Assembly: GCA_016840685.1 (NCBI GenBank)
Contig: JAEORX010000001.1
Coordinates: 80,945-144,944 of the forward strand
Source of the DNA: Candidatus Thorarchaeota archaeon
GTDB lineage: Archaea; Asgardarchaeota; Thorarchaeia; Thorarchaeales; Thorarchaeaceae
Direction of reading: 5' to 3'
Length of the DNA: 64,000 nt
Made by a program: the position numbers and the translations under genes. Of this stretch, positions 46,287-49,182 are shown one piece after another. The notes below the pieces were generated by a model, which was not told the DNA's origin, made no database searches, and saw only the letters and a program-made list of their open reading frames with translations. Position 1 is the stretch's first letter. Each line of letters begins with the position of its first letter.

Positions 46287-46874
46287 TCACTCCCTCAGTG
46301 GCTCCTCCAGTTGGGCATCCCATGTGCCAGATCGGACCTCTGCTTGGAATTCCTTTGCGGTCTTGCCCTCAATGTTCACACCCATCTGACTACAGCTGCC
46401 TGATATTATCATGACTGCCGCCTTCATTGTCTGGGCAGAGAGATCTTCCGCCTTTCCTTTTGCGATATTCTTCAATTGGTCAATCGTGATGTTACCAATT
46501 ATGTTCGTGTTGGGTGTTCCAGAACCTTTGGATGCGCCAACCTCTTTCAGTATCAGTGCACTAGTTGGTGGTGTACCAACCTCTATCTCAAAGCTCTTGT
46601 CGTTGGGATTGACAATGATTTTCACAGGTACTTTCAATCCTGCGAAGGGCTGTGTGACCTCATTGATTTTCGTCACAACCTGAAAGATGTTTACTCCTGT
46701 GGGTCCCAGAGCAGGACCAATGGGTGGCCCGCCACTGGCTTTTCCTCCTTCGACAAGTGCTTCTACAATAACGTCTTTTTCGCTCAATTCTAGCACGACT
46801 CCTGATGCAGTACACTCGGTGCGTACGCAACACATCCGATAGGGTCGACCCAAAGGACAGAACTCATTGTACAT
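46287..46874 (-). CDS. rpl11: ribosomal protein L11 (start probably internal)
   Basis: VEALVEGGKASGGPPIGPALGPTGVNIFQVV. Confidence 0.95.
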   Translation of the reverse strand: MYNEFCPLGRPYRMCCVRTECTASGVVLELSEKDVIVEALVEGGKASGGPPIGPALGPTGVNIFQVVTKINEVTQPFAGLKVPVKIIVNPNDKSFEIEVGTPPTSALILKEVGASKGSGTPNTNIIGNITIDQLKNIAKGKAEDLSAQTMKAAVMIISGSCSQMGVNIEGKTAKEFQAEVRSGTWDAQLEEPLRE

Positions 46875-47013: not shown

Positions 47014-47721
47014 TCACTCATCATCAGATTCGTGAGCCCAGAAGGAGTCTTCATCATCAAATTCGTCTCGATCAACGAAAACCTCTTCCTCCTTCTCCTC
47101 CTCCACCACTGGCTCTTCTTTTCTCTCTGCACGCTCGACAATCTTTGCAAAATCTGCATGGACTCTAACAGGAATGGTATATGGGCTGTCCAACAACTCC
47201 AAGATTAGTTCCTCTTTGCCTGCATCTACACGTGCCACTTTTGCGCGTTCGCCTTTGAACGGACCAGAAATGATTTCCACAACATCATCTACTGAGATCC
47301 CCTCCGCAGCGGGTGGTGGTGCTAGAAACTTGTCAATCTCATCCAGACTCACTTTTCCGCCTACTCGTCCTCTAACATGAGGAACACCAGAGATCGCAAT
47401 TTCCACGTCTCTGAACTCGGTCGTTTCAATGAACACATAACCCCTGAGTGTTTCTGGAACAAGAATCGCCTTTACTCGCCCAAGCAACTGATTTGTTGAC
47501 ACTAGTTCAGGTTCTCCTGTCTTCTTCTTTTTCTTGCAGCCTTTCATGTGATCCTTCGTAGCCTTCTCGGATGAGAACTCTTCCAGACAGAAAGGACATC
47601 GCCATACATCAGTCTCACCAATCACTGCTGTGGTGATCAGGTCTGTCACACTACGTTCCTGTCCAATAGTTGTACGCACTGCATAGATACTTGTGCCAGT
47701 TTCCAAAGGAGGACCCTCCAA
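47014..47721 (-). CDS. spt5: transcription elongation factor Spt5/NusG with zinc-finger insertion
   Basis: IYAVRTTIGQERSVTDLI / ILVPETLRGYVFIET / VPHVRGRVGG / DDVVEIISGPFKGERAKVARVD (KOW); insert WRCPFCLEEFSSEKATKDHMKGCKKKKK. Confidence 0.95.
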   Translation of the reverse strand: MEGPPLETGTSIYAVRTTIGQERSVTDLITTAVIGETDVWRCPFCLEEFSSEKATKDHMKGCKKKKKTGEPELVSTNQLLGRVKAILVPETLRGYVFIETTEFRDVEIAISGVPHVRGRVGGKVSLDEIDKFLAPPPAAEGISVDDVVEIISGPFKGERAKVARVDAGKEELILELLDSPYTIPVRVHADFAKIVERAERKEEPVVEEEKEEEVFVDRDEFDDEDSFWAHESDDE

Positions 47722-47752: not shown

Positions 47753-47947
47753 CTAGGCTTCGACGCCCCAGTTCCCTGTGATCAGAGTCATTATAATCTG
47801 AATTATGAAGCTGACCATCCCTACAAGGACCATAGCAAGTAGACTGACTCTGGTACTCATCCAGAGCTCTTTTCTGGAAGGCTTTGTCGCCAGTTTCAGA
47901 ATACGTCTGCTTTCGTTGATGAACTCACCAACACCCATAATCTTCAC
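47753..47947 (-). CDS. secE: SecE/Sec61-gamma
   Basis: 64 aa; FINESRRILKLATKPSRKELW + TM; between spt5 and ftsZ. Confidence 0.9.
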   Translation of the reverse strand: MKIMGVGEFINESRRILKLATKPSRKELWMSTRVSLLAMVLVGMVSFIIQIIMTLITGNWGVEA

Positions 47948-48039: not shown

Positions 48040-49182
48040 TTATGTGAGCTTTGGTATGCCAAGATCACTCCGCAAGTCATCCACAAGGGGTGTGAATGGT
48101 TCAGTCTTGTCAAAGACATATGGAGAGGTGACTCCTGAAGCAATAATTGTCACACGAAGTCTGTCATCCAGTTCTGGTATTATCAGTGCACCATAGATGA
48201 TTTCAGCTCCTGGATTGACCTGTTCAGTGACGATCTCGATTACACGTTTTGCTTCTGACAGTTGTAGTTCTGCATTACCACTCACATTCACTAGAATATT
48301 CCGAGCATTCTCGATTGACACATCTATCAGTGGGTTGCGAAGAGCATTGATAACTGCATCCTCTGCCCTATTCTCACCGTCTGCCTCACCAAGGGCAATG
48401 ATTGACACTCCACCATTCTTCATTGTAGTACGTACATCAGCAAAGTCCAGATTGACAAGCCCGGGTTTGGAGATCAACTCAGCAATCCCCTTCACAGCTC
48501 GGACAAGCACCTCGTCTGCAACCATAAACGCCTCAGGTAATGAGAGATCTGGTGCAATCTCCAGTAGCTTCTCATTTGGGATTGCGATGAGAGTGTCGAC
48601 GTGCTCCATAAGTGCATTCAATCCACGGGTGGCATTCTTCTTCCGTGTCGCCCCTTCGACATCAAAAGGAAGACAAACAATGGCAACAGTCAGAGCACCA
48701 TTTTCTTTTGCAGCCTTTGCAATATGAGCTGCAGCTCCTGTGCCGGTACCCCCACCCATTCCTGCTGTGATGAAGACGAGGTCTCCAGCTACCACGTCCT
48801 TGATTACATCATAGGTTTCAATCGCTGCCGCTTCTCCAATATCTGGATCATTTCCTGCCCCCAATCCCCCACATGTTTCCTTACCAAGGAGCAACTTGTG
48901 ATGCGAGTTGCAGAAGTAGAGATCCTGTGCATCTGTATTTGCAGCGAGGGTTTCTGCTCCTTCTACACCCACTTCCATAAGGCGGGTTATTGCATTATTT
49001 CCAGCCCCACCAACACCAACCACAAGTATTCTTGCGTTCACTGACTCTAGGAGGTCAGCTAGCTCCTCATCGGTTGTGGCTGATTTTGGTGTCTTCTTCG
49101 TCTTCTTTGCAGGTGTTTCTCGTTTTCCACCTGACGATTTGAGGACCTCTTCTAGTAACGGGTGCATGATATTACCACTCAC
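48040..49182 (-). CDS. ftsZ: cell division GTPase FtsZ
   Basis: VVGVGGAGNNAITRL; GMGGGTGTGAA. Confidence 0.97.
   Translation of the reverse strand: MSGNIMHPLLEEVLKSSGGKRETPAKKTKKTPKSATTDEELADLLESVNARILVVGVGGAGNNAITRLMEVGVEGAETLAANTDAQDLYFCNSHHKLLLGKETCGGLGAGNDPDIGEAAAIETYDVIKDVVAGDLVFITAGMGGGTGTGAAAHIAKAAKENGALTVAIVCLPFDVEGATRKKNATRGLNALMEHVDTLIAIPNEKLLEIAPDLSLPEAFMVADEVLVRAVKGIAELISKPGLVNLDFADVRTTMKNGGVSIIALGEADGENRAEDAVINALRNPLIDVSIENARNILVNVSGNAELQLSEAKRVIEIVTEQVNPGAEIIYGALIIPELDDRLRVTIIASGVTSPYVFDKTEPFTPLVDDLRSDLGIPKLT

Follow-up and report, generated by a model that had tools for sequence, protein, structure and literature searches.

A predicted C2HC zinc finger inserted into the NGN domain of Spt5 across Thorarchaeota

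The gene studied here lies in the window, that is, the whole 64,000-nt stretch of a Candidatus Thorarchaeota contig that was analysed, within an operon of the order ftsZ-secE-spt5-L11-L1-P0 (Table 1). Of 29 Thorarchaeota loci, 27 kept this order; the remaining two had it as well but lacked some of the downstream genes. The reverse-strand frame at 47014-47721 had been read as Spt5 from the letters alone, and its translation matched that description, with scores of 139.4 bits for the archaeal Spt5 model TIGR00405 (cut-off, 69.95), 61.9 bits for the Pfam NGN family (PF03439) and 30.3 bits for KOW (PF00467). Residues are numbered throughout from the start of this program-made frame, a TTG at 47721 that overlaps the ribosome-binding site GGAGGG; a similar purine-rich motif was also found upstream of many Thorarchaeota homologues. 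The conserved start was TTG 47704-47706, which shares its alignment column with the ATG, GTG or TTG starts of nearly all other Thorarchaeota, so that the protein comprises 230 residues and the N-terminus of the frame is shortened by five. Moreover, the gene was the single Spt5-NGN match in the source genome, and a specialised paralogue was rejected, as there was one Spt5 match per Thorarchaeota genome. The window gene encodes the only Spt5 of its thorarchaeote, a general one.

Table 1. Coordinates of the spt5 gene, its parts and its neighbours in the window
Feature	Position	Strand	Basis or remark
ftsZ	48040..49182	(-)	Pfam Tubulin and FtsZ_C
secE	47753..47947	(-)	Pfam SecE, 36.2 bits
Ribosome-binding site GGAGGG	47714..47719	(-)	Sequence; GGAGG ends 8 nt upstream of TTG 47706
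spt5 coding sequence, 230 aa	47014..47706	(-)	Start TTG 47706, program-made frame reaching 47721; TIGR00405; start-codon column conserved in Thorarchaeota
NGN part 1, strand β1 and helix α1, residues 11-37	47611..47691	(-)	AlphaFold model, block means 88-97
Insert, residues 38-82 (about 45 residues)	47476..47610	(-)	Missing in TIGR00405, Pfam NGN, PDB archaeal Spt5 and other Asgards
Predicted zinc finger, residues 40-62	47536..47604	(-)	Predicted ligands C42, C45, H58, C62; profile matches C2H2 fingers in PDB
Lysine run (KKKKK), residues 63-67	47521..47535	(-)	Segment 63-70 with net charge from -3 to +8 across Thorarchaeota
Post-finger segment PxL[VI]SxNxLxGR, residues 71-82, with extra strand 72-75	47476..47511	(-)	Conservation in 45 sequences; strand in model
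NGN part 2, residues 83-134	47320..47475	(-)	Pfam NGN and model
Linker and KOW domain, residues 135-200	47122..47319	(-)	Pfam KOW at residues 144-170, and model
Acidic C-terminal tail with DSFWAH motif, residues 201-235	47017..47121	(-)	[SG]FW in 45/45 Thorarchaeota sequences; low model confidence
rpl11	46287..46874	(-)	Pfam Ribosomal_L11

The sequence-only reading had noticed some 45-50 extra residues after the first helix of the NGN domain, and the exact extent of this segment, residues 38-82, was established from profile matches with and without it. The best stretch of the native protein did not begin to match until position 27 in TIGR00405 (145 positions) and position 28 in Pfam NGN (84 positions), while after deletion of residues 38-82 the matches covered positions 1-143 and 1-84, respectively. 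Furthermore, the PDB Spt5 structures of M. jannaschii, P. furiosus and T. kodakarensis aligned to the window protein as two pieces flanking the insert. The matches restored on deletion and these two-piece alignments place the insert between NGN helix α1 and strand β2. No extra segment appeared in this connector in the other archaeal Spt5 examined (alignments, profiles and PDB entries), as had been supposed for archaeal Spt5 in general. The βαββαβ NGN domain, uninterrupted in archaeal Spt5, is thus broken here by the insert; the window protein is still counted as a member, in the form of a variant, since it exceeds the curated equivalog cut-off and its fold is otherwise complete. An assembly artefact, which had been raised as a possible source of the segment, was rejected, since 45 Thorarchaeota genomes, including many named and independent MAG records, yielded this very insert.

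The C-x2-C-x(n)-H-x3-C unit pointed out within the extra residues took the form C42-x2-C45-x12-H58-x3-C62, which corresponds to the classical type of finger (C-x2-4-C-x12-H-x3-5-[HC] with a conserved Phe), and the ββα fold of that type was found in the predicted structure. In particular, AlphaFold modelled strands 39-41 and 48-49, helix 52-61 and an extra strand 72-75, with a pLDDT of about 90-95 for the insert that may partly stem from the familiarity of the program with finger sequences; the insert folded alone gave the same finger and strand (85.5). Across 22 residues, the insert model superimposed on a Tramtrack finger to within 0.4 Å, the Foldseek E-values being non-significant for such a short query. 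When the insert profile was compared with the PDB, C2H2 fingers were matched with a best E-value of 1.8e-9, obtained with a poly-finger protein whose score adds up several fingers. The Pfam matches were likewise of C2H2 types: zf-C2H2_4 gave 19.5 bits on the window protein, below the curated cut-off of 27, which is a detection threshold and no definition of the fold, and was matched by 11 of 12 members at E <= 0.01. As modelled, the insert is a single ββα finger of the C2HC type, of the classical kind, followed by a short downstream strand, and the finger presumably binds a structural zinc. Its duplication from another protein of the source genome was rejected, as the search for a second copy in that genome yielded no convincing match (next best E, 0.11).

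Among 45 distinct sequences, C42, C45 and H58 were invariant, together with D38, P43, P71, N77, L79, G81 and R82, while W40, E47, F49, T55, M59 and C62 were nearly so; the conserved Phe of the finger, F49, was kept in 44 of them. By comparison with the ligands and core, which were fixed or nearly so, the base-reading positions of the helix (-1, 2, 3 and 6) were variable, with entropies of 1.0-2.4 bits. The ratio pN/pS was 0.27 in the insert, 0.11-0.13 in the rest of the NGN domain, 0.16 in KOW and 0.49 in the tail, values that are rough, since synonymous sites were saturated, and of which only the order has meaning. The finger is under purifying selection, with a constraint below that of the NGN core and above that of the tail. 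The fourth ligand, C62, was present in 42 of the 45 sequences and replaced by Glu in the same column in the remaining three, corresponding to all three genomes of genus g10 (L027, L093 and L162), whose Spt5 sequences formed one nested clade in a tree built with the insert removed (support 100/92). Since Glu is the fourth zinc ligand of AFV1p06, an archaeal viral finger (PMC3541406), the swap may, by analogy, preserve the predicted zinc site. Regarding charge, the finger was net acidic and a lysine run was found in most species, and the segment after the finger fell to -3 in genus g11 (L095 and L096), in which the finger was strongly acidic and the lysine run was missing.

A survey of Asgard genomes, which had been proposed as a check, separated the window's family from its relatives. 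A total of 45 out of 47 Thorarchaeota genomes had an Spt5 match, and all 45 presented the finger; there was no Spt5 match in G006 (92% complete, same genus), probably due to an assembly gap, nor in G225 (52% complete). In 26 other families of the same phylum, NGN was matched in 162 genomes, and the insert appeared neither among the matches listed, which cross the connector uninterrupted, nor in any representative read. For archaea outside the Asgards, the comparison covered structures in the PDB, curated profiles and a single scan of genome contigs by pattern, in which the named matches were Candidatus Thorarchaeota, plus one record titled simply 'archaeon'. Within the data searchable, the insert is confined to the Thorarchaeota family, so that it is not the common archaeal segment that the sequence-only reading had to reckon with. 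In the tree, which was built on NGN and KOW, the Thorarchaeota Spt5 formed one clade (100/100), for which a single gain of the finger on the Thorarchaeota stem is the simplest reading. Some isolated cases were also observed: the Spt5 of L063 (G206) and L080 (G211) grouped with other families (f11 and f5, respectively), and their contigs may be misbinned; one Asgard genome of family f25 had a second Spt5-like protein of about 93 residues with NGN only (L139, G131:C5:41395-41625); and in L135 (G043:C78, family f8) a SecE-like part and Spt5 shared one 242-residue frame with a longer β2-β3 hairpin, a possible gene fusion.

To place the finger on the elongation complex, published contacts were transferred to the window protein. 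Residues 12, 13 and 68 of T. kodakarensis Spt5 contact non-template DNA (PMC11616081) and align with residues 18, 19 and 117 of the window protein. In the βαββαβ fold, these DNA-contact loops and the α1-β2 connector occupy opposite ends, so that the finger is probably situated at the DNA-distal end of the NGN domain, judging from the topology and those contacts. In the mechanism proposed, one ββα C2HC finger with its downstream strand would have been inserted into the α1-β2 connector on the Thorarchaeota stem and retained since; it would be held at the NGN end facing away from upstream and non-template DNA; and, less certainly, it might provide a docking surface through which Spt4/5 on elongating RNAP recruits or holds a partner. 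RNAP, Spt4, the ribosome or some other factor might be what the finger contacts. The finger being acidic in most species, the variable base-reading positions, the changing charge of the segment behind the finger and the DNA-distal site together favour protein docking or a brace over nucleic acid, and docking is ranked first, by a narrow margin, mainly because the NGN domain of all relatives lacks the finger, so that a brace would be unnecessary. Overall, we regard it as reasonably probable that the finger was gained on the Thorarchaeota stem by an otherwise normal Spt5 and serves as a protein-docking surface rather than as a DNA reader. A narrower version, in which the finger would be a dedicated Spt5 receptor for a Thorarchaeota-specific partner linking transcription to another process, possibly captured from an archaeal viral finger of the AFV1p06 type, is doubtful; if true, the one universal elongation factor would have acquired, in a lineage of Asgards, a finger for protein docking of eukaryotic style.

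The finger might instead be purely structural, bracing the α1-β2 corner of the NGN domain and the NGN-Spt4 unit with no partner of its own, a possibility to which we give less credence than to docking. A comparable arrangement is that of MYST acetyltransferases, whose C2HC finger is embedded and packed within a larger domain, and MYST fingers were among the fold and family matches of the insert, which was itself predicted to be well ordered. Furthermore, conservation sits in the ligands, the core and residues P71, N77, L79, G81 and R82, while exposed helix positions vary, and a conserved core among mostly variable exposed positions would be explained by a structural role no less well than by docking. 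However, the NGN domains of the other Asgards and archaea examined manage without a finger, and the NGN profile is complete once the insert is removed.

That the finger and lysine run bind nucleic acid (upstream DNA, the non-template strand or nascent RNA), thereby tuning pausing, is unlikely. The predicted fold is the classical ββα one, the KKKKK that follows the finger in the window, like the lysine run of most species, could bind RNA or DNA, the NGN domain of other species contacts DNA (PMC10482750, PMC11616081), and AFV1p06 binds DNA (PMC3541406). Nevertheless, an acidic finger in most species, a lysine segment whose charge drops below zero in genus g11, base-reading positions that are unconserved and known DNA-contact loops at the opposite NGN end all speak against such a role.

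The rest of the elongation complex was conventional. Residue A14 of the window Spt5 aligned with the RNAP-binding A4 of M. jannaschii Spt5, whose A4R mutant has its RNAP binding abolished (PMC3223566). Spt4 was matched in 43 of the 47 family genomes, including the source genome, with all four cysteines present in the 13 sequences read, Elf1 was matched in 45 of 47, and the coiled coil at the clamp tip of Rpo1 was unchanged in Thorarchaeota. A matching Thorarchaeota-only insert in RNAP was rejected as well, since none of sizeable length was found in Rpo1 or Rpo2. With the RNAP-pocket residue, Spt4, Elf1 and the Rpo1 clamp being standard, the finger appears as an add-on to a normal Spt4/5 complex. 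It is therefore extremely improbable that the finger makes up for the loss of Elf1, a zinc-bearing elongation factor, or for degeneration of Spt4, despite Elf1 being a zinc-ribbon factor that acts near the NGN domain in eukaryotes, according to a 2026 survey (PMC13289920), and despite the mini-domain that occupies the place of Spt4 on the NGN domain of Aquifex aeolicus NusG (PMC3382729): Elf1 is present and Spt4 is intact.

Compared with known archaeal Spt5 (TIGR00405; P. furiosus 3P8B, M. jannaschii 4ZN1 and T. kodakarensis 9BCT), the Thorarchaeota protein shares the NGN domain with one KOW, the Spt4 partner, the RNAP pocket residue and the operon secE-spt5-L11, and adds the 45-residue α1-β2 zinc-finger insert and a longer acidic tail ending in SFW. 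Lineage-specific extra domains within NGN are likewise found in the bacterial NusG proteins with domain II (T. maritima 2XHC and A. aeolicus 1M1G). However, the insert of T. maritima greatly exceeds the Thorarchaeota one in size and lies in the β2-β3 hairpin, after residue 41 (IP) and before KLFPGY, whereas the Thorarchaeota insert precedes β2, so that an identity of the two was rejected; moreover, bacteria have no Spt4, while Thorarchaeota retain it. AFV1p06 (2LVH) likewise combines a classical finger with an extension that follows it (TM 0.62/0.66 over 45 columns, a non-significant similarity with E 2.6) and presents the Glu ligand proposed for genus g10, but it is a free-standing viral DNA-binding protein, unlike the finger embedded in Spt5. 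The MYST C2HC finger (PF17772) shares the embedding in a larger domain and was superimposed by Foldseek with an rmsd of 0.8 Å over 25 residues, although MYST is an unrelated enzyme and the Pfam score of the insert was 18.7 against a cut-off of 28.8. Another lineage-specific NGN change with a lineage-specific function is the metazoan Spt5 NGN helix tied to NELF-dependent pausing (PMC10482750), which is short, near the non-template strand and at a different site.

Spt5/NusG is the only transcription factor common to all cells, and its NGN topology has been described as very similar across life (PMC7819879). No published description of the Thorarchaeota finger was found in the open-access literature searched, and the available portions of the 2026 elongation-factor survey, which covered 218 Asgard proteomes, do not mention an Spt5 finger, Spt4 and Elf1 being the only archaeal zinc domains mentioned there (PMC13289920). 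NGN inserts are known from bacterial NusG; the present case differs in the site, the classical finger, the presence of Spt4 and the lineage-wide fixation. A classical finger, predicted to fold and fixed in the NGN domain across a whole Asgard lineage, offers a clean, testable case of an elongation complex gaining contacts, for which the Cys to Glu ligand swap and the finger-free related lineages are natural controls.

Finally, the strongly acidic C-terminal tail noticed in the sequence-only reading exists, but its likeness to the acidic region of eukaryotic Spt5 did not hold, as the eukaryotic region is N-terminal (PMC7819879) and acidic C-termini, often with a terminal aromatic motif, recur in many other Asgard families. 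The tail is no evidence of eukaryotic kinship. Three DNA-pattern matches of the SFW motif were found elsewhere in the source genome vs. two in the control, a difference that is uninformative. The tails had [SG]FW in all 45 Thorarchaeota sequences and ended in EWxKF in family f2, WxKF in f27 and DIFSEFF or DVFSEFF in f22, and these aromatic ends suggest a short peptide motif for some partner.
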